Assembly: GCA_013426805.1 (NCBI GenBank)
Contig: JACDZG010000068.1
Location: 1-38,376, forward strand
DNA: 38,376 nt
Direction: 5' to 3'
DNA from: Chromatiaceae bacterium
GTDB lineage: Bacteria > Pseudomonadota > Gammaproteobacteria > Chromatiales > Chromatiaceae
Made by a program: the position numbers and the translations under genes. Every line of letters begins with the position of its first letter. Position 1 is the stretch's first letter. Of this stretch, positions 747-12,349 are shown piece by piece. Under the pieces are notes generated by a model. That model saw nothing but the letters and a program-made list of their open reading frames with translations. It had not been told where the DNA came from and did no database searches.

Positions 747-790
747 AAAAAAAATCGCGCGCTGCGCGTGGCGGGGGAAGGCTCCCCCGC
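747..790 (-). terminator. Probable intrinsic terminator of the fused NACHT gene
   Basis: Just past the stop of the gene ending at 820, the minus strand carries a perfect GC-rich hairpin (8-bp arms at 771-778 and 783-790, 4-nt loop). A second short GC hairpin follows (about 756-768), then a run of eight T (747-754 on the plus strand as A). Hairpin plus T-run is the form of a Rho-independent terminator. No gene lies between it and the Uma2-like start at 644. Confidence 0.6.
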
Positions 791-819: not shown

Positions 820-3800
820 TCAGAGTGCAGAGTGATCAGAGTCCAGAGTTGAAGAAACAGGGGCAGCACGCAACACGACACGAAAACCCAAGCTATCGTT
901 CCGGTTGACGGGTTGAACCCAGTTGCGAAAGGCACAGCGCGCGAGGTCACGATGGTCGAACCACGAACCGCCGCGCAAGACCCGCCGTACCTCGTCCCCC
1001 GCGTCGAGCGCCTCGCGCCGCGCGTCATCCACCTGATACGGGTACGCATAAGTTTTGTCCCAATCCGTGCCCCACAGGCTGCGGGTCCATTCCCAGACGT
1101 TGCCGATCATGTCGTACAGACCAAACCCGTTGGCCGGGAAACAGCCGACCGCCGAGGTCTCCTGGATCTGCGAGTGATCGTCATTGGCGGCATTCGGGTC
1201 GGGAGTGTCGCCCCAGGAGAACACCGCATCGACCAGGCCGCCGCGTGCCGCTTTCTCCCATTCCAACTCGCTCGGCAGGGCGACCCGCCACGATCCTTCA
1301 CGCACCAGCCGGGCAGCCACACTGCCGGTCAAGACCGGTTCGTTCGCCAGCGCCTTGGTGAGCCACTCGCAGTAGGCCAGCGCCTCGCGCCAGCCGACCC
1401 AACGCACCGGCCGGCTATCCGGGTCGCGCAAGGCATCGGCGTCACCCGGTTGGACCCCGGTCGAATCGCAGTAAGCCCTGAACTGAGCGACCGTGACCGG
1501 ATAGCGCGCGATGTAGAACTCCGGGGTCGGCGTGACGGTGTCATTGATCTCGCCCCCGGGGACGTCGTTGCCGATGATGCCTGCGACCCGCTCCAAGTCT
1601 GCCTTCCGCGTGCCGATCCTGAATGCCGAGTCGGCCGGAATGTGCACGAAGCCGAGCAAGTCATCGGCGGGCAAGAAGAATCGCCGCGGGTCGAAGCGCG
1701 GATCGCCCAAGCGCGCCAGGGTGTCGCCGGCGCGGGCGCGCACCGCGGGTGCGGACTGCCTCAGCGCGTCGGCGTCGCTCAGCAGGGCAAGTATCCGGTG
1801 CGCGTATTCGGTCCGGAGCGGCGCGCCGCTCTCGGGCCATTCCAGCGCGGCCGTGCCCGCCAACTCCACGGCGGCGAACCGTGCGTCCGATGTCGCGCCC
1901 GCCTTGGCCAGGGCGCCCAGCAACTCGCGTGCGGACTTGGCCGCATGGGCGCCGAGATAGCCGGCCAGGAGCAGGGTCGGCTCGCGCCACCAGGGGTCGT
2001 CCAGCCGGTCGGCGAGAAAGGCGAGGATGGCCGCGCGACCCTCCGCGCCGGTGACCTCGCGCAGATAGCGCGCGGCCAGGAACTCCTGAAAGGCCAGATG
2101 GATGAAGCGATACACGCCGTTGCGCTCTTCGAGCACACTGCCGCGCTGGCGGGCGTGCCGCAGAAAGTCGTCGATGCGCGGCGGGGTGAAGTCCGCTTCC
2201 TGACGCAGGGCGGCCTTGAGGGCCGGTTCTTCGAGCTCGCGGCCCTGGTCGCGGCCCTGTTGGTGCAGGTGGAAGGCGAGATGCTGCGCCATGTCGCGAA
2301 ACAGCTTCCAATCGGTCGACAGTTCGCGGATATCGCCTTCCTCGCGCCCATAGTCGACCTGCAGCAGGGCATTGATGGCCTTGTCGAACAGATCGGCGCG
2401 CTCGTCCGGCAGCCGGCGGTTGTTGACATGCACGATCAGCAGCAGGCGCACCATCAGGGGGCTGTCCACCAGCGCCGGCACCGCCTCGCCCTGACGCGCG
2501 CGGCGCCCGGCTTCCAGGCGGGTCATCCCGTCCACCAGGTCAGTGACCCGCTCGGCTTGCAAGGACTTGTCCCGCGGGTGGATACAGGCATAGGCCTGCT
2601 GCACCATGGGGACGATGTGCTGCGTGAAATCCAGCGGCTGCACGACGATCTCGCGAAAATCCGCGCCCAGCGCGGTGCGCCCGCCGCGGTAGGCGATGGT
2701 GCGGCAGGTGACCAGGACGCGCATGGCCGCGCGCCCGCCCACCAGGTCCTCCACCGACTGACGCACCTCGGCGCGCTCGTCTTCATTCGCCACCTCATCG
2801 AGCCCGTCGAGCAGCAGCAGCACGTCGCGCCCGTCCTGGAGCAGTTGTACGAAGAAGTCCGCGGGCAAGTCGAAGTCCGCCTGTCGGCTGATCAGCTGGT
2901 GCGAGATGAAATAGGCGAGGGTCCGCTCGCGCGCCGGGGCCTGGCCCAGTAGTTGGCGCCGATAGCGGGCGAAGGAGGCGAGCGGCACGACGATCGGCAG
3001 CGGCAGGGCGCTCGGGTCGGTGGTGAGGCCCAGTCGTGCGCAGGCCGGTTCGGGTTCGCCGGTGAGCAGCGAGCAGGCCAGCGCCCAGGCCATGTGCAGC
3101 AGGACGGTGATCTTGCCGGACCCCGGTCCGCCGATGATGACCAGGCGGTGGCCGAGCCCAAGCACCTGGTTGAGCGTGATGTCGCCGTCCCGTTCATTGG
3201 CCGCGGTGCCGTCGGGCGGCCCAGCGCGGCCCCGGTCGTTCCCGCCTTGGTGCGGCAGCGCCTCGCCGACGCGCGGCAGCGGCCTGGCCCGCAGCGGCAC
3301 ATAGGCCGTCTCCAGCGGCAACAGCACCACCGGCGCCCCGCCCGCCCGCTCGATGCCGCGCAACTCGATGCACTGCGTACGCGCGCGCAGCCAGCTCAGA
3401 TAGCCGGCCACCTGGCGGGCGATCTGTTCCTTGGGCAGCGCCCGGTCCGTGGCGGCATGGTAGTGGGTGACGATCTGGGTGCCGGTGACGATGGTGCCGG
3501 AATTGTCGGCGGTCTTGACGCCGGCCGCCCCGACCGCATCGCCGCCGCCCTGGGCGATGGCGCCGCTGTCGTTGAGTGTGGCCTCATACGCGGTGTGAGC
3601 CGGCGCACCCTGGTCCGGCGCGAAGGTGATGAATCCGCTCGCCGCCAGTTTGTCGAGTTGGCCGTTGAAGTGCAGTTTCAGCGCGTCGAGCGTCTGATAG
3701 CGGGTGTAGAAGTGACCCAGTTGGTCCAGCTTGTGCTGAAAGGCCCAGAGACTCATCAAGTCCTGTTGGTTGGCGCTGCCGATGTCGATCGGGGCATCCT

Positions 3801-4116
3801 TGAAATAGGTGAAGATGTAGGGCTTGCTGGTCGCCTGGAACTGGCCGAAGGCGGTTTCAAACTCTTCCGCGGTGTAGTGACCGACCTTGGTCCAGAACAG
3901 CATGACGAAGAGATCGCAGCGGCGGATCTCGCGGTTGTACTTGTCTTGCAGGCCGGTCCGCGACACCGCGTCCAGGAAGTCTTCCCAGACCACCAGTTCG
4001 ATGAAGACGCCGCGCTGCACCCAGTCGTTGTTCTTGCGGTTGATGAAGATCTCGAACTCCCTGCGATCTTCCAGCAGTTCGCGGGACGAGGCAAGAAAGA
4101 TCCGCTGCGTCTGCAT
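820..4116 (-). CDS. Fused TIR/DUF4062-like - NACHT (STAND ATPase) - FGE/C-type-lectin-like sensor protein
   Basis: 1098 aa. The start is the ATG at 4116, which has AGGAGG 11 nt upstream; a longer start at 4149 lacks this. Residues 5-110 are a DUF4062/TIR-like domain (RIFLASSREL, FVMLFWTKVG, YTAEEF). Residues 183-212 are a Gly/Ala-rich linker. The NACHT ATPase has Walker A GGPGSGKIT (329-337), Walker B LLLLDGLDE (433-441) and the VLVTCRT sensor segment (467-473). Helical repeats follow, then from about 820 a formylglycine-generating-enzyme-like fold (YPVTVAQF, LPSELEWEKAA, IGNVWEW, RGGSW, GFRVV). The cysteines of true FGE are missing, so a binding role (C-type-lectin-like) is more likely than catalysis. 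Architecture suggests an abortive-infection or NLR-like sensor: ligand at the C-terminus, oligomerisation by NACHT, effector at the N-terminus. Odd: Walker A has Ile where Ser/Thr normally binds Mg. The function is inferred from domains only. Confidence 0.88.
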   Translation of the reverse strand: MQTQRIFLASSRELLEDRREFEIFINRKNNDWVQRGVFIELVVWEDFLDAVSRTGLQDKYNREIRRCDLFVMLFWTKVGHYTAEEFETAFGQFQATSKPYIFTYFKDAPIDIGSANQQDLMSLWAFQHKLDQLGHFYTRYQTLDALKLHFNGQLDKLAASGFITFAPDQGAPAHTAYEATLNDSGAIAQGGGDAVGAAGVKTADNSGTIVTGTQIVTHYHAATDRALPKEQIARQVAGYLSWLRARTQCIELRGIERAGGAPVVLLPLETAYVPLRARPLPRVGEALPHQGGNDRGRAGPPDGTAANERDGDITLNQVLGLGHRLVIIGGPGSGKITVLLHMAWALACSLLTGEPEPACARLGLTTDPSALPLPIVVPLASFARYRRQLLGQAPARERTLAYFISHQLISRQADFDLPADFFVQLLQDGRDVLLLLDGLDEVANEDERAEVRQSVEDLVGGRAAMRVLVTCRTIAYRGGRTALGADFREIVVQPLDFTQHIVPMVQQAYACIHPRDKSLQAERVTDLVDGMTRLEAGRRARQGEAVPALVDSPLMVRLLLIVHVNNRRLPDERADLFDKAINALLQVDYGREEGDIRELSTDWKLFRDMAQHLAFHLHQQGRDQGRELEEPALKAALRQEADFTPPRIDDFLRHARQRGSVLEERNGVYRFIHLAFQEFLAARYLREVTGAEGRAAILAFLADRLDDPWWREPTLLLAGYLGAHAAKSARELLGALAKAGATSDARFAAVELAGTAALEWPESGAPLRTEYAHRILALLSDADALRQSAPAVRARAGDTLARLGDPRFDPRRFFLPADDLLGFVHIPADSAFRIGTRKADLERVAGIIGNDVPGGEINDTVTPTPEFYIARYPVTVAQFRAYCDSTGVQPGDADALRDPDSRPVRWVGWREALAYCEWLTKALANEPVLTGSVAARLVREGSWRVALPSELEWEKAARGGLVDAVFSWGDTPDPNAANDDHSQIQETSAVGCFPANGFGLYDMIGNVWEWTRSLWGTDWDKTYAYPYQVDDARREALDAGDEVRRVLRGGSWFDHRDLARCAFRNWVQPVNRNDSLGFRVVLRAAPVSSTLDSDHSAL
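871..975 (-). other. Candidate variable region (DGR-type) in the FGE-like C-terminus, copy 1
   Basis: This stretch encodes RGGSW to GFRVVL (residues 1048-1082). Against the paralogue at 4473-4577 it aligns without gaps. The seven framework codons between RGGS and GFRVV (ARCA, R, P, R) match at 20 of 21 bases, while the other 17 codons match at only 21 of 51 bases. Fourteen of those 17 codons end in C or T, as expected if derived from AAC/AAT template codons by adenine mutagenesis. Diversity-generating retroelements act on this fold and position. No template repeat or reverse transcriptase is in the window, so this remains a candidate. Confidence 0.5.
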
Positions 4117-4133
4117 GGCGATGGGTTCCTCCT

Positions 4134-4196
4134 GGCGAGTCGCGGGCAACTACGGACACCGGACGGGGGAATGATACCCCCGGACCGCGATCATCG
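4134..4196 (-). promoter_or_regulatory. Leader/promoter segment shared with the split locus (copy 1)
   Basis: About 63 bp upstream of the ATG at 4116 is nearly identical to 8433-8494 ahead of the gene starting at 8264. It contains a palindrome (GGGGG-AATGATA-CCCCC on the plus strand, 4165-4181). On the minus strand this reads GGGGG-TATCATT-CCCCC and embeds TATCAT, a plausible -10 box. A -35-like TTCGAT lies 16 nt further upstream but is weak. The conservation and palindrome suggest a common promoter or operator; the regulator is unknown. Confidence 0.5.
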
Positions 4197-4342
4197 AACG
4201 CCTCTTTGCTCCACGAGCGGTTGCCCCGCTTTGACCGCCAATGTTGGCCAAGCATCGGGTCGTAGGCGTTGATCATCCCTCCGGCCGCAACGTTGGCGGC
4301 GGGATACATCATTGCGGACCTGCCGGCCGTAGAGGCTGCTCG

Positions 4343-4440
4343 CCGTAGGATGCGGTGAGGCACGAACCGCATCAACCCCGTCATCACCCGACCGATCGCC
4401 CCGGAGACCTTTCCGATGGAGTACTCACCGCATCCTACGG
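4343..4440. repeat. REP-like inverted repeat (17-bp perfect arms)
   Basis: Arms 4343-4359 and 4424-4440 are perfect reverse complements (CCGTAGGATGCGGTGAG) around a 64-nt middle. Elements with a TAGGATGCGGTGAG core are a common intergenic palindrome type in Gammaproteobacteria. Its right arm overlaps the last codons of the gene ending at 4425, so that protein's extreme C-terminus is encoded by the repeat. The rest of the gap 4197-4342 shows no gene. Confidence 0.75.
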
Positions 4441-7235
4441 GCTTGGGCACATTGGGAACTAGGGACCGAACTCAGTACCACACGAAAACCCCGGTCGTCC
4501 GCCCGACCAAAGGGAAGACTGCTGCTGCGACAGGCACAGCGTGCGTAGTCGTGTTGATTGACATATGAACCGCCGCGAACGACCCGCAGTAGGGTATCCG
4601 CCGCGTCCAGTGACTCGCATTCCCGGTCCTCTCGCCAGAATGGATAAGCACAATCCGGCCTCGCATAATCTGTCCCCCATAAACTGCGCGTCCATTCCCC
4701 TACGTTACCGATCATATCGTACAGTCCGAGTCCGTTGGCTGGAAAGCAGCCGACGGCGGATGTTTCGCCGATCTTCGTATACTCGTAATTGGCTCGGTTC
4801 GGATCTGGTTTATTGCCCCACGAGAACACACTATCGCGATGTTCGGCCCGCGCCGCCTTTTCCCACTCCAACTCGCTCGGCATGGTGACCCGCCATAACC
4901 CGCCACGAACTAACTGCGCCACCTCATACCTTTTGAAGATCGGCGCGGTCGCAAGTATCTTGTTCAGCCACTCACAGTAGGCGAGCGCTTCGTACCAATT
5001 GACGTAACGTGCGGGTCGGTTGTCCGGGTCGCGGAGCGCATTGGCTTCGGCGAGTTCGTATTTTTCCGCATCTACGAAAGCCTTCAGCTGCGCGACCGTA
5101 ACCGGGTAACGCCCGACGTAGAACTCGGACGTCGGTGTGAATGCGTCGTTGATTTCGTATACCGGTATCGTATCGTTAACGATTTTTCCAAATCGCATCG
5201 CGTTCTTCGTTCGTGTCCCGATCCTGAATTCCGGATCAGCGGGTATGCGTATGAAGCCCAGCATCGCGTCGGCTGGGAGGTAGAATTGTCGCGGATCAAA
5301 ACGAGGGTCGCCCCATCGAGCTAGGGCGTCACCGACGCGGGCACGTTGGATCGGATCTGACTCCCGAAGGGCGATCGGATCCTCTAGTAGACCAACGACT
5401 TGTTGTACGCACTGTAACCTGATCTCCGGACCGCTTTCGCGCCACTCTTGCGCGGCTACGCCCGCTAACTCGATAGCGGAAAACCGTGCACCCGCACTTG
5501 CGCCCGCCTTAGCAAGCGCGCCTAAGAAGGTGCGCGTCGCGTCGGCGGCCTGTCCCGCCATAGAGCCGACGAGCAGCAGGATGGGTTCGCGCCACCAAGG
5601 GTCTTCCAGCCGTCCGTCAAGAAAGGTTAGGATGGCGTCGGGATCTTCCGGACCGATCACCGTTCGCAGGTAGCGTGCGACCAGGAACTCTTGGAAGGCC
5701 AGATGGATGAAGCGATACACGCCGTTGCGCTCTTCGAGCAGACTACCGCGCCGGCGGGCTTGGCTCAGAAACCCGTCGACGTGAGGGAGAAAGCGTGCCT
5801 CCTGACGCAGGGCGGACTTCAAGTCCGGCTCTTCGATCTCGCGGCCTTGGGTGCGCCCCTGCCGGTGCATGTGGAAAGCGAGATGCTGCGCCATGTCGCG
5901 AAACCGGGTCCAATCGGTCGATAGTTCGCGGATATCGCTCTCCACGCGCCCGTAGTCGACCCGCAAGAGGGCATCGATGGCCTTTTCAAACAGATCGGCG
6001 CGCTCGTCCGGTAGCCTGCGGTTGTTGACATGCACGATCAGAAGCAGGCGGAGCATCAGCGGGCTGTCCACCAGTGCCCGCGCATCCTTACCCTGACGGA
6101 CGCGGCGCTCCTCCTCCAGCCGTGCAATCCCGTCCAGCAGGTCCTTGACCCGATTGGTGCTTAAGGCCCTGTCCTCCTGATGAATGCACGCATAGGCCTG
6201 ACGCACCATCGGGGTGATGTGCTGCGCGAAGTCGAGTGGCTGCACGACGATCTTGCGAAATTCGGCGCCCAACGCGGTACGTCCGACGCGATAGGCAATG
6301 GTGCGGCAGGTGACCAGGACCCGCATGGAAGCGCGCCCGCCCACCAGGTCTTCCACCGACTGGCGCACCTCGGCGCGTTCGTCCTCATTCGCCACCTCGT
6401 CGAGCCCGTCGAGCAACAGCACCACGTCGCGCCCGTCCTCAAGCAATTGCACGAAGAAGTCGGCCGGTAAAGCAAGGTTGGCCTGTCGGTTGATCAGATG
6501 GTGTGAGATAAAGTGGGCCAGTGTGCCGTGCAGTGGCTGAGCATCGCCCGGCAGGTGGCGACGATAGCGGGCAAAGGAGGCAAGCGGGACGAAGATCGGC
6601 AGCGGCAATTCTTTCGGGGTGATTGGGCCGCCCGAGGCACTCATCAGGCCCAGGCCCGAGTGAGCCGGCTCGGAGGTGCCGGTGAGCAGCGAACACGCCA
6701 GTGCCCATGCAATGTGCAACAGCACTGTGGTCTTTCCTGATCCCGGCCCCCCGACGATCACGAGGCGATTGCCAAACCCGAGTAATTGGTTCGTGGCTAA
6801 GTCACCCCCGTCATCTGCCATCCACCGGGCCTGTAGCGGCACATAGGCTGTCTCTAGCGGCAACCGTACCTCCGGCGCGCTGCCGCGCCACTCGATGTAC
6901 TGCGTAAGGGCACGCAGCCAACTCAGATAGCCGGCCACCTGGCGGGCGATCTGCTCCTTCTGGCGGGCGATCTCGTCATTCTGGCGGGCGATCTGCTCCT
7001 TGGCGAGCGCCCCGCCAGCGGCGTCATGGTGGTGGGTGACGAACCGGGTGACGAATCGGGTATGGGTGAGGGTGAGGATGGTGCCAGAATTGTCGGTGGT
7101 TTTGACGCCGGCCGCCCCGATCGCATCGCCCCCGCCCTGGGCGAGCGCGCCCACGCCGGTCAGATGCGTCGATTGGGCAGCCTCCGGCTGTTCAAGTGCC
7201 GTGATGTCGTTCAGGTCGATGGGTGCGGATGCCAT
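4425..7235 (-). CDS. NACHT (STAND ATPase) - FGE/C-type-lectin-like sensor protein, split-locus partner
   Basis: 936 aa, ATG at 7235, 9 bp downstream of the stop of the TIR-like gene at 7245-8264, so probably one operon. It lacks the N-terminal TIR-like domain of its paralogue at 820-4116 and begins with the Gly/Ala linker (ALAQGGGDAIGAAG, about 30-43). A heptad segment KEQIARQ is then repeated (79-99). NACHT: intact Walker A GGPGSGKTT (162-170), Walker B LLLDGLDE (273-280), VLVTCRT. C-terminal half: helical repeats and an FGE-like domain (YPVTVAQL, MPSELEWEKAA, IGNVGEW, RGGSY, GFRVV) lacking FGE catalytic cysteines. Likely the ATPase and ligand sensor of a two-protein system whose effector part is the upstream gene. 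It is clearly paralogous to 820-4116 throughout. The last residues run into a palindromic repeat. Function is inferred. Confidence 0.88.
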   Translation of the reverse strand: MASAPIDLNDITALEQPEAAQSTHLTGVGALAQGGGDAIGAAGVKTTDNSGTILTLTHTRFVTRFVTHHHDAAGGALAKEQIARQNDEIARQKEQIARQVAGYLSWLRALTQYIEWRGSAPEVRLPLETAYVPLQARWMADDGGDLATNQLLGFGNRLVIVGGPGSGKTTVLLHIAWALACSLLTGTSEPAHSGLGLMSASGGPITPKELPLPIFVPLASFARYRRHLPGDAQPLHGTLAHFISHHLINRQANLALPADFFVQLLEDGRDVVLLLDGLDEVANEDERAEVRQSVEDLVGGRASMRVLVTCRTIAYRVGRTALGAEFRKIVVQPLDFAQHITPMVRQAYACIHQEDRALSTNRVKDLLDGIARLEEERRVRQGKDARALVDSPLMLRLLLIVHVNNRRLPDERADLFEKAIDALLRVDYGRVESDIRELSTDWTRFRDMAQHLAFHMHRQGRTQGREIEEPDLKSALRQEARFLPHVDGFLSQARRRGSLLEERNGVYRFIHLAFQEFLVARYLRTVIGPEDPDAILTFLDGRLEDPWWREPILLLVGSMAGQAADATRTFLGALAKAGASAGARFSAIELAGVAAQEWRESGPEIRLQCVQQVVGLLEDPIALRESDPIQRARVGDALARWGDPRFDPRQFYLPADAMLGFIRIPADPEFRIGTRTKNAMRFGKIVNDTIPVYEINDAFTPTSEFYVGRYPVTVAQLKAFVDAEKYELAEANALRDPDNRPARYVNWYEALAYCEWLNKILATAPIFKRYEVAQLVRGGLWRVTMPSELEWEKAARAEHRDSVFSWGNKPDPNRANYEYTKIGETSAVGCFPANGLGLYDMIGNVGEWTRSLWGTDYARPDCAYPFWREDRECESLDAADTLLRVVRGGSYVNQHDYARCACRSSSLPFGRADDRGFRVVLSSVPSSQCAQARRMR
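4473..4577 (-). other. Candidate variable region (DGR-type) in the FGE-like C-terminus, copy 2
   Basis: Encodes RGGSY to GFRVVL with the same length and framework (ARCA, R, P, R) as 871-975, but 15 of the 17 intervening residues differ. Fourteen of the 17 codons end in C or T. At least five columns differ between the copies as C versus T in the third base, which adenine mutagenesis of one shared template would not produce. Either the templates differ or drift has followed. Confidence 0.5.
6939..7001 (-). repeat. Three tandem 21-bp repeats encoding a coiled-coil heptad
   Basis: Units 6939-6959, 6960-6980 and 6981-7001 are near-identical; the outer two are identical. On the minus strand they encode KEQIARQ, NDEIARQ, KEQIARQ. 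The paralogue at 820-4116 has a single such unit (around 3413-3433). In-frame expansion would lengthen a helix between the linker and the NACHT domain by two heptads. Confidence 0.85.
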
Positions 7236-7244
7236 GGCGTTCCC

Positions 7245-8264
7245 TCAGGCCGTCTTGAGCTTATCCAGCACGAAACGGGTCACCGGTCCGGCGATGCCCT
7301 GGAGGATCGGCGTGGCGAAGAGTGCGACGACCGCCCCGACCGCGCCCGGCACCAGTGCGACCAGTCCGTCCAGTAGCCGGCCCAGTCGACTGTCGTCCGC
7401 CGCCTGCCCCTTGGCGATCTCGGCTTTGAGCACTTGGACCTGTTGCAGGGCTGCGGTTTGCGTGTCCGCGGAGGCCTGCCGGGCGATGACGGCCAGCAGC
7501 GCGGCGAACAGGGGTTCCAGGTCCCGGCCCGGAAGGCCCTGCACCTGCTGGTCGCGGCCGATGAAGTCGCCGCCCGTGGTCACCTCCCCGCCGATGTAGG
7601 CGCCGCCGCCGGTTTCGACCTGGGTCCCGGTGTTGATCCGACCGGTGTTCTGGCCGCCGATCGCGACGCCGCCGGCACCGACCGCGGTCCCGCCGCCTTG
7701 GGCGATGGCACCGCTGCCGTTGAGTGTGGCCTGATACGAGGTGTGAGCCGGCGCACCCCGGTCGGGTGCGAAGGTGATGAATCCGTTCGCCGCCAGCTTG
7801 TCGAGTTGGCCGTTGAAGTGCAGTTTCAGCGCGTCGAGCGTCTGGTAGCGGGTGTAGAAGTGACCCAGTTGATCCAGCTTCTTCTGAAAGGCCCAGAGAC
7901 TCATCAGGTCCTGCTGGTTGGCGCTGCCGGTGCTGATCGGGGCGTCCTTGAAATAGGTGAAGATGAAGGGCCTGCTGGTCGCCTGGAACTGGCCGAAAGC
8001 GGTCGCGAACTCTGCCGCGGTGTAGTGACCGACCTTGGTCCAGAACAGCATGACGAAGAGATCGCAGCGGCGGATCTCGCGGTTGTACTCGTCTTGTAGG
8101 CGGGTGCGCGACACCGCGTCCAGGAAGTCCTCCCAGATTACCAGTTCGATGAAGACGCCGCGCTGCACCCACTCTTTGTTCTTGCGGTTGATGAAGATCT
8201 CGAATTCCCTGCGATCTTCCAGCAGTTCGCAGGACGAGGCGAGAAAGAGCCGTTGAGTCTGCAT
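7245..8264 (-). CDS. TIR/DUF4062-like protein with Gly-rich linker and C-terminal hydrophobic domain
   Basis: 339 aa. The ATG at 8264 is chosen because AGGAGG lies just upstream, as in the paralogue. Residues 5-180 are nearly the same as the N-terminus of the fused protein (RLFLASSCEL, FVMLFWTKVG, YTAAEF, GHFYTRYQTLDALKLHF). A Gly-rich segment follows (about 183-237: GAIAQGGGTAVGAGG, GGAYIGGEVTTGGDFIG), probably a short beta-solenoid. Then a helical stretch, then a hydrophobic tail (VALVPGAVGAVVALFATPIL) near 302-321 that could insert in or associate with a membrane. The gene sits 9 bp upstream of the NACHT gene ending at 4425. Together they mirror the fused protein, so this is probably its effector or adaptor arm. 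Whether the TIR-like domain hydrolyses NAD cannot be judged from sequence; one Glu (YTAAEF) aligns with a shared position. Confidence 0.85.
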   Translation of the reverse strand: MQTQRLFLASSCELLEDRREFEIFINRKNKEWVQRGVFIELVIWEDFLDAVSRTRLQDEYNREIRRCDLFVMLFWTKVGHYTAAEFATAFGQFQATSRPFIFTYFKDAPISTGSANQQDLMSLWAFQKKLDQLGHFYTRYQTLDALKLHFNGQLDKLAANGFITFAPDRGAPAHTSYQATLNGSGAIAQGGGTAVGAGGVAIGGQNTGRINTGTQVETGGGAYIGGEVTTGGDFIGRDQQVQGLPGRDLEPLFAALLAVIARQASADTQTAALQQVQVLKAEIAKGQAADDSRLGRLLDGLVALVPGAVGAVVALFATPILQGIAGPVTRFVLDKLKTA

Positions 8265-8327
8265 GGCGATGGTTCCTCCTGGGGTCTTGATCAGCGTTAC
8301 GGCTGGCGTCCGGGCGCCCGGGCGTCT

Positions 8328-8390
8328 GGTCGAGGCTTTAGCCGGATGAGGTCCGCGCAGCCGCGAGATCGACCGGCTAAAGCCTCGACC
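8328..8390. repeat. Palindromic repeat with 18-bp perfect arms
   Basis: Arms 8328-8345 and 8373-8390 (GGTCGAGGCTTTAGCCGG and its complement) flank a 27-nt loop. It lies inside an extra stretch (about 8281-8432) between the ribosome-binding site of the gene starting at 8264 and the shared leader segment. The homologous leader of the other locus lacks this stretch, so it looks inserted. Confidence 0.8.
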
Positions 8391-8432
8391 TCCGGTGTTC
8401 TTGCGGCCGGTCCGACGATCAAGGCCCCTTCC

Positions 8433-8494
8433 GGCGAGTCGCGGGCGAATAGGGACACCGGGCAGGGGAATGATACCCCGGACCGCGATCATCG
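8433..8494 (-). promoter_or_regulatory. Leader/promoter segment shared with the fused locus (copy 2)
   Basis: Near-identical to 4134-4196, including the palindrome GGGG-AATGATA-CCCC (8465-8479) and the following GACCGCGATCATCG. Here it is about 170 bp from the start codon because of an intervening palindrome-bearing insertion. Homology with the other copy ends at about 8494, marking the edge of the duplicated unit. Confidence 0.5.
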
Positions 8495-8570
8495 CGGCGA
8501 TCGGGCTGAAGACTGACCGACCGCCGGGAGGCATTGATCATAGTTCGGGCCAGCGATGCTCATTTAGAGT

Positions 8571-11398: not shown

Positions 11399-12349
11399 CA
11401 GGGCAATCGCATCAAGCACTGCTAATATTAGCGGATGCCGATGCGCCTGCGTCGTCCTTGCGTTTGGGCGACTCGAAGAGCAGTTTTGTCAGGTAGTCCT
11501 CGTTGCAAGCGGCTTTCAAGCGTTTGTTCTGGAGACCAAGCTTGGTGTCGTCATTCCGGTCTCGAGAAACGCCGACTCGACCCCGGCATCGCCTCGGGCA
11601 TCGGCGTCGATGAAAGCCTCCTCGACCTCGGCGGCCAGCGTTTCCTGGTTGCCTTTGAGGGCCAGGACGTAGTCACCCCCTTGGTTGATGATCTGCTCGG
11701 CAATCTTGGTTTGACAGCCCATGGCATCGATGGTGACGATGCAACCTTGCAACTGCAGCCACTCCAGCAGCCGCGGAATCGCCGTGATCTCATTGGATTT
11801 GGCCTCCGTGGCGACTTGCCCGAGCACCACCCGGTTAGCCGTCGCCCAGGCACTGACCAGGTGCAACGCGGCCAACCCCTTGCGGCGGTTGTGCGAGCGG
11901 CGCAAGGTCTTGCCATCCACCGCAATGATCTCATCGGGAAGCAGCGTGGCGACCGCCGCGCTCCACTGGCGAAAGCAGGCGGCGAACGCCTCGGGATTGA
12001 TCAGCGCAAACACGCGCCCGAAGCAATCGTGCGAGGGAATCCCATGGGGCAGTTCCAGAAAGGTCCGCAGCCACGGCTCCTTGCTCTTGGCGAACGTCTC
12101 CACGGCCACCCAGCCGTCGGCCCCACTGAGGGTCGCGGCGATGGCGATGACAATCATCTCGATCAGCTTGTGCCGGCTTTGCGGCGCGCTGCGTGGGTCT
12201 TCCAGCGCGGCAAAATGACTCGCCAGCGATCGCTCGACACTCAAATCGCACACCGTGAGATCTCCCTAAGATTCAAAAGCCGAGAAGCATGGGGGTGACC
12301 GAGTTGGTTATCCAACAGTATCCGCTAATACGTTGATGCGATAGCCCTG
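11399..12349 (-). mobile_element. Degenerate ISAs1-family insertion sequence
   Basis: Terminal inverted repeats of 17 bp match at 16 positions: CAGGGCAATCGCATCAA at 11399-11415 and the complement of CAGGGCTATCGCATCAA at 12333-12349. The CAGGGC end and the transposase assign it to the ISAs1 (H-repeat) family. At 951 bp it is shorter than intact members (about 1.2-1.3 kb) owing to an internal deletion. No target duplication is evident: the left flank is jetB and the right flank a histidine kinase, unrelated genes. This suggests that adjacent DNA was lost by IS-mediated deletion or recombination. Confidence 0.85.
11412..12253 (-). pseudogene. ISAs1-family transposase with internal deletion and frameshift
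   Basis: Starts at a GTG (12253) behind GGGAG. The N-terminal 230 codons are typical: FAALEDPRSAPQSRHKL, the DDE region IIAVDGKTLRRS, IVTIDAMGCQ and DYVLALKGNQ. At about 11560 the normal sequence jumps: the frame ends at 11516, while the adjacent frame resumes with LQNKRLKAACNEDYLTKLLF, the typical C-terminus, ending at 11412. Roughly 100 residues, including the C-terminal catalytic Glu region, are missing. The enzyme should be inactive, so the element is immobile unless helped in trans. Confidence 0.8.

Follow-up and report, generated by a model that had tools for sequence, protein, structure and literature searches.

Two NACHT genes with FGE-like C-terminal domains

The window, the whole stretch of DNA analyzed here, comprises bases 1-38376 of contig C13 (JACDZG010000068.1) of genome G000 (GCA_013426805.1), which is a draft assembly of 7.6 Mb in 349 contigs. 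Two genes on the minus strand lie near its start. Gene 1 (820..4149, with its ATG probably at 4116) encodes a PDC-S60-like N-terminal domain, a NACHT domain, and a C-terminal domain resembling formylglycine-generating enzyme (FGE). The end of this last domain carries a block that we designate VR1 (copy 1; 860..981, minus strand). Gene 2 (4425..7235) encodes a NACHT domain and an FGE-like C-terminal domain with the block VR2 (copy 2; 4462..4583, minus strand), and it is without the N-terminal domain of gene 1. Residues 4-152 of the gene 1 product match the candidate defense protein PDC-S60 of PADLOC at 29.1 bits. The minus-strand ORF adjoining gene 2 (7245..8534) has a PDC-S60-like start (28.4 bits in PADLOC) that resembles this N-terminal domain; gene 1 has this domain as part of the sensor itself, and for gene 2 it stands on a separate ORF upstream.

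The NACHT NTPase domain scores above the Pfam cut-off of 26.7 bits in both genes (31.4 bits for gene 1 and 36 bits for gene 2). Its Walker A motif reads GGPGSGKIT in gene 1 versus GGPGSGKTT in gene 2, and the NTPase of gene 1 may therefore be weakened. The Pfam FGE-sulfatase match, which reaches 163.8 bits in gene 1, ends at residue 1081 of 1098 in gene 1 and at residue 920 of 936 in gene 2, and in both genes the variable repeat (VR) is predicted to sit at the C-terminus of an FGE/C-type-lectin-type fold. In sequence searches, the FGE domain matches solved FGE enzymes as well as Treponema variable protein 1, and at least 80 distant FGE proteins are among the listed matches in relatives, with best segments 26-41% identical.

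Formylglycine-generating enzyme has two active-site cysteines near its C-terminus. The domains studied here share the fold and the RGGS...GFR motif with this enzyme but, when VR1 is aligned to solved FGE structures, only the second of the two nearby cysteines has a counterpart. Ligand binding is therefore likelier than catalysis, and catalysis by the FGE-like domain of gene 1 appears unlikely. Both genes likely encode NACHT-NTPase conflict sensors in which the FGE-like C-terminal domain serves as a ligand-binding tip. By analogy with known families, the tip would sense an invader and the NACHT part would signal.

Two other features of the window are mentioned for completeness. Positions 1-760 hold an ORF, which we take to be Uma2-like, that recurs at 88-94% identity in nine other places in the genome; the start of C13 falls inside it. 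Positions 11516-12253 presumably encode a transposase-like ORF beside a truncated gene.

Comparison of the two gene ends

An earlier note on this DNA had suggested that the two gene ends are targets of a diversity-generating retroelement (DGR). It had located both ends correctly, and the strand is minus. The interval between RGGS and GFRVV is ungapped, as had been noted, but it spans 25 codons in each gene and not 24. Instead of the 7 framework and 17 variable codons claimed, we count 9 identical residues (25 of 27 bases agree) and 16 differing residues (18 of 48 bases). Most variable codons do end in C or T, although the counts are 12 of 16 for copy 1 and 13 of 16 for copy 2 rather than 14 of 17 for each; over all codons, the corresponding shares are 56% and 54% in the two genes. 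The five columns with C versus T at the third base, which the earlier note had raised as an objection, are real and informative: the two copies are not recent products of one template. Finally, the statement that the silent framework has hardly drifted is weak when only the window pair is considered (p=0.045), because among codons for the same residue the third bases agree at 15 of 20 in the VR block versus 72 of 138 in the compared codons that precede it.

A four-copy family and a template repeat in a congener

At the nucleotide level, the end of gene 1 matches C140:773-1086 (83%), C4:540-827 (78%), C140:5039-5305 (73%), and, at 70%, the end of gene 2. The VR1 family in G000 consists of four copies, namely VR1 and those on C4, at C140:813, and at C140:5079. 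Their frameworks agree almost to the base, and their AAY-type codons differ. From these four copies we wrote an inferred template, and this was done before any matching template repeat (TR) had been found. Among 92 relatives, 14 contain a match to the inferred template. The best of these, at C287:5507-5627 in the congener G001, is 93% identical, which is above any copy in G000.

This G001 sequence is adenine-rich and lies outside a gene. Beside it is a target gene whose VR (C287:5221-5342) differs from the TR at 19 of 25 adenines and at 0 of 96 other sites. The same contig carries a putative Avd remnant, a minus-strand piece whose end resembles the C-terminus of the Avd protein encoded on contig C152 of G000 (12 of 21 residues; no Pfam match), and a reverse transcriptase (RT) remnant (open over 6007-6444). 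The latter retains the C-terminal part only, including YVDD, and matches RVT_1 at 20.8 bits, which is below the cut-off. It is 54% identical over 113 residues to the RT on C152, which is its nearest RT in the 8 genus genomes, where the remnant otherwise has no close homologue. G001 has two other RT matches, both without the DGR motif. A second VR lies on the other strand (C287:6712-6833). Three G001 VRs were compared with the TR; besides the one beside it, they differ at 11 of 25 adenines and 2 of 96 other sites and, on contig C216, at 17 of 25 and 1 of 96. A further FGE end, at C287:8674, is drifted, with changes at 18 of 25 adenines and at 16 of 97 other sites.

Over the 122-nt block, VR1 departs from the G001 TR at 12 of 25 adenines and at 9 of the 96 remaining sites (p=4e-5). 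The corresponding values are 15 of 25 and 8 of 96 for the C4 copy, 9 of 25 and 11 of 96 for C140:813, and 10 of 25 and 9 of 96 for C140:5079. We read the nine non-adenine differences of VR1 as probable species divergence of the template. As the earlier note had anticipated, variation among related copies concentrates at inferred template adenines: the adenines of the G001 TR predict variation among the four G000 copies at 23 of 25 sites versus 8 of 96 other sites (p=6e-16), and at codon positions 1 and 2 only the values are 21 of 23 versus 3 of 58. When the mask is shifted by whole codons, the best of 39 shifts yields p=0.0014. Masks based on the other bases show no enrichment in the four-copy family, with 4 of 38 C, 3 of 36 G, and 1 of 21 T sites varying. 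On these comparisons, VR1 is almost certainly of DGR origin.

The framework can also be followed across the genus at 76 sites selected for agreement between the G001 TR and most G000 copies, a choice that favors G000 and G001. The four G000 copies deviate at 1, 0, 4, and 2 of these sites and the three G001 VRs at 0, 1, and 0. In other congeners, the copies deviate at 9, 9, 8, and 9 sites (two copies in G005 and one each in G004 and G007).

Silent sites and the shared 3′ flank

Codons that encode the same residue in two copies provide a separate view of the framework. In the VR, silent third bases of copy 1 and the C4 copy agree at 30 of 30 positions versus 53 of 90 before the VR; the two C140 copies agree at 27 of 28 versus 47 of 82, and copy 1 and C140:5079 agree at 23 of 24 versus 49 of 79. 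Two further pairs point in the same direction (23 of 27 versus 51 of 96, and 25 of 26 versus 63 of 92). The remaining one of the six VR pairs, copy 1 and C140:813, has hardly any silent excess (20 of 25 versus 113 of 161). The baseline comes from a codon alignment of up to 270 codons before the VR rather than the whole gene; this alignment was used instead of ungapped bins, which are meaningless beyond about 60 bases upstream of the VR. Because silent third bases agree so well in the VRs, selection at the protein level does not explain the framework.

The shared sequence extends past the VRs. The VR and about 75-110 bases of 3′ flank are common to the family at about 91-96% identity (82% for C4 and C140:5079), and the FGE bodies are only 50-82% identical. 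Since genes with different bodies have this end in common, recombination of the gene end did happen; the VR with its 3′ flank looks as if it had moved as a cassette. Could the whole pattern then have arisen with no retroelement at all, if the genes were simply duplicated, selection favored diversity among the binding residues, and gene conversion acted on the gene ends? The shared flank, as well as the marginal silent-site result for the window pair taken by itself, would fit such a history. However, gene conversion would homogenize the adenine sites too, and yet 23 of 25 of these vary while 88 of the 96 interleaved sites, silent ones included, do not. Moreover, the G001 TR lies outside a gene, and every difference between it and the VR beside it falls at an adenine. 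We consider an origin by duplication, selection, and gene conversion very improbable, and diversification by a DGR remains our reading.

Within the flank common to the VR1-family copies is a GC-rich inverted repeat (771..790, minus strand) with an 8-bp stem and a 4-nt loop, which may act in homing or belong to a terminator. Because it is followed by another hairpin and a T-run, these two roles are not separable here. The whole flank folds modestly better than shuffled versions, with z values of -2.4 for VR1, -1.3 and -1.0 for two G000 copies, and -2.5 for G001.

Six other RT-TR sets in the same genome

The earlier note had proposed looking in the genome for a DGR-type RT and for a template rich in AAC codons, and G000 contains both. 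A search yielded 12 RVT_1 matches, among which six carry GLPIGNLTSQ or a near variant. These six DGR-type RTs reside on C152, C311, C139, C198, C347, and C259, and all six match phrog_1423. Matches on C94, C201, and C195 have no DGR motif by pattern; two of these are partial or cut by contig ends, and one has an internal stop. Each of the six RTs has a short AAC-rich copy of an FGE end (a TR) nearby. We scanned 49 G000 stretches and 4 G001 stretches, some of them overlapping, with the six G000 TRs and the G001 TR using a scoring scheme that forgives changes at adenines. Among the best 14 matches per TR, the six G000 TRs match 25 different VRs with ≤9 non-adenine mismatches each. For example, the C198 TR matches VRs on four contigs, one on each, without a mismatch at any of 97 non-adenine sites and with 8, 12, 13, and 18 mismatches at 25 adenines. 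The genome has 68 FGE-sulfatase matches, TR fragments included.

Five candidate ORFs for accessory proteins were compared with Pfam. Avd proteins are found at C152 and C259, with a C311 candidate scoring 39.8 bits against a cut-off of 40, and HRDC proteins are found at C139 and C259. None of these lies next to the window genes.

None of these six systems appears to serve the window genes. VR1 and VR2 were also used as queries over the G000 stretches retrieved; against VR1, the best of the six TRs (C311 and C152) score 30.5 versus 83.5-95 for the family copies, and therefore no known G000 TR templates the window genes. In the reverse scan, again among the best 14 matches per TR, a window copy emerges only for C311, with 29 of 91 non-adenine mismatches, and for the G001 TR. 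None of the six DGR-type RTs is the cognate of the VR1 family. The AAC-rich TRs of G000 are of other classes, and the TR that matches the window pair is the one in G001. The concentration of family variation at adenines, the matching TR of the congener, and the six other RT-TR sets are what the sequences show in favor of a DGR origin of VR1.

A template not found in the draft

A TR of the VR1 family was not found in the 7.6-Mb draft, apart from a possible 62-nt relic. The inferred template matches the four family copies, VR2, and five of the six other-class TRs at 68-78%; beyond these, G000 yields a single 28-nt match on C140 and fragments no longer than 65 nt, which lie in other FGE genes or elsewhere. 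The candidate relic, C140:7937-7998, matches the 5′ flank and first 28 nt of the G001 TR at 53 of 62 bases and then stops. It is possibly what remains of a TR, although it reads TTC where AAC is expected, which speaks against this interpretation. Congeners with drifted copies are similar in this respect. G007 (3 contigs) has a VR of the family and no TR for it was found there, and no templates for the congener copies were seen near their own RTs in the stretches scanned (6 in G007, 9 in G005, and 4 in G004, the latter two genomes being drafts).

Perhaps the missing TR is simply unassembled. This is conceivable because the draft has 349 contigs and because C4, C13, and C140 all begin 540-860 bases (<900) from their VR1-family copies. 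C4 ends with the 47 bases that begin C13, so that C4 and C13 may be neighbors, and C195 contains sequence 92% and 97% identical to parts of the beginnings of C4 and C140, respectively. On balance, we lean toward the view that the family template is truly absent from G000.

These observations bear on whether VR1 might still be a live DGR target, either because a seventh TR-RT set is unassembled or because one of the six RTs, such as that on C152, acts in trans on an unassembled TR. The nearly undrifted frameworks of the four copies, with their seldom deviating sites, would be expected of active targets, and the fragmented assembly leaves room for such a TR. The G001 remnant is most closely related to the C152 RT, and diversification in trans has been reported in Thiohalocapsa (in the part of PMC10907252 available to us). 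Against continued activity stand the lack of any TR with the family framework in 7.6 Mb other than the possible C140 relic, the fact that the only close RT among the 8 genus genomes is a remnant, and the presence in the three-contig G007 of a family VR with no TR for it. We regard a live VR1 as unlikely, and we favor a repeat whose DGR has gone.

VR2 and a MITE-like repeat

VR2 is a drifted relative of the VR1 family. Comparison with the G001 TR shows changes at 15 of 25 adenines and at 26 of the 96 other positions (p=0.0025). With deviations at 16 of the 76 framework sites, VR2 is the most drifted copy. Outward from the end of the VR, copy 1 has 75-113 bases in common with the other three copies at 91-92%, and this flank is absent from the 3′ side of VR2. 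A 98-bp MITE-like repeat with perfect 17-nt inverted ends (4343..4440) is found there instead, and gene 2 takes its stop codon from one of its arms. G000 has 26 exact copies of the 16-nt arm, whereas a reversed control has none. Three arms lie ≤100 nt downstream of VR blocks (C13:4425, C4:476, and C140:4992). Further arms are present on C4, C56, C62, C140, C195, C227, C347, and other contigs, several of them beside FGE or DGR genes.

An alternative is that VR2 was never a VR of this DGR and is an ordinary FGE paralogue. The many differences from the TR at non-adenine sites, the lack of the common flank, and a silent agreement with VR1 that is raised only marginally (the 15 of 20 given above) all agree with that interpretation. 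However, VR2 still departs from the TR preferentially at template adenines, and VR1 and VR2 differ from each other at 18 of 25 TR adenine sites versus 18 of 82 other sites (p=8e-6). A search of the 8 genus genomes for a template specific to VR2 recovered VR2 and otherwise nothing but three VR1-family copies in G000 and their homologues in G005 (2) and G007 (1). An ordinary paralogue seems improbable to us given the adenine bias, and VR2 is quite likely a former DGR variable repeat. The insertion of the MITE-like repeat may have ended homing at copy 2. The original proposal of DGR targets is supported, in that it holds for copy 1 and probably, in a historical sense, for copy 2.

Relation to known DGR systems

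Large genomes with many DGR loci have a precedent in the purple sulfur bacterium Thiohalocapsa sp. PB-PSB1, for which nine DGR loci have been described (Dore et al. 2024, PMC10907252). Going by the part of that paper available to us, its targets likewise include NACHT or STAND NTPases with FGE/C-type-lectin ends, and its authors put forward, as a hypothesis, that the tip senses an invader and that NACHT triggers a response. Also shared with G000, according to the same part, are degenerate loci without RT or TR, remote targets, MITE-like repeats that replace DGR parts, and one class of VRs without a matching TR elsewhere in the genome. The two cases differ in that the template not found in G000 is carried by a congener, in which just the C-terminal part of the RT survives, and in that a MITE-like repeat ends one target gene in G000. 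Furthermore, activity in Thiohalocapsa was shown with metagenome reads, whereas the G000 case comes from sequence comparison. The kind of system is already known from that work, as far as it is described there, and the G000 case adds to it.

Other comparisons concern individual parts. As in Bordetella phage BPP-1 (Guo et al. 2011, PMC3240598), the VR lies at the 3′ end of the gene, and a GC-rich hairpin (8-bp stem, 4-nt loop) stands beyond it. In the portion of that report available to us, phage DGR hairpins lie 4-34 bp from the VR and have a GRNA loop, whereas that of VR1 lies about 70 bases beyond the block and has the loop GCCT (GACT in G001). The FGE domain also appears to have the FGE-like C-type-lectin fold of Treponema denticola variable protein 1 (PDB 2y3c, E=1.6e-11). 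The Treponema protein is a known DGR target that is described as an outer-membrane lipoprotein in the accessible part of Dore et al. (PMC10907252), whereas the FGE domain of the window genes is fused to NACHT.

Fate of a DGR and its sensors

We put the probability at roughly three in four that the window genes encode NACHT-FGE conflict sensors diversified by a DGR that is now missing from G000, with VR1 stalled or frozen and VR2 older and off-template. An error-prone RT would have copied a template repeat of about 120 nt with misincorporation at template adenines. The resulting cDNA would have replaced the gene end, such that variation falls mostly on AAY codons and the framework between them is left unchanged. 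Both the TR and the RT that served the VR1 family would subsequently have been lost from G000, perhaps leaving a TR relic. If they are indeed gone, then VR1 has stalled or become frozen as a variable repeat. For its part, VR2 would be an older VR that lost template control, possibly when the MITE-like repeat replaced its 3′ flank.

A further reading, to which we give slightly less than even odds, is that successive steps in the decay of a single DGR are preserved within this genus. G001 would represent a stage with an intact TR, a half-deleted RT, and near-perfectly templated VRs; in G000 the TR is not found and the framework would still be near-perfect; and G007, G005, and G004 would represent a stage at which the framework has drifted and no TR is found. 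If this is true, then once-hypervariable, immune-like sensors would be kept as a frozen repertoire after the mutator has gone, and a MITE-like insertion into the 3′ flank of a VR, as at VR2, may lock a single target. This analysis adds a DGR-rich genome in which a target family seems to outlive its template while a congener preserves that template. It also makes testable the fate of hypervariable sensors after the loss of their mutator, namely whether a chosen variant is held under selection or decays.
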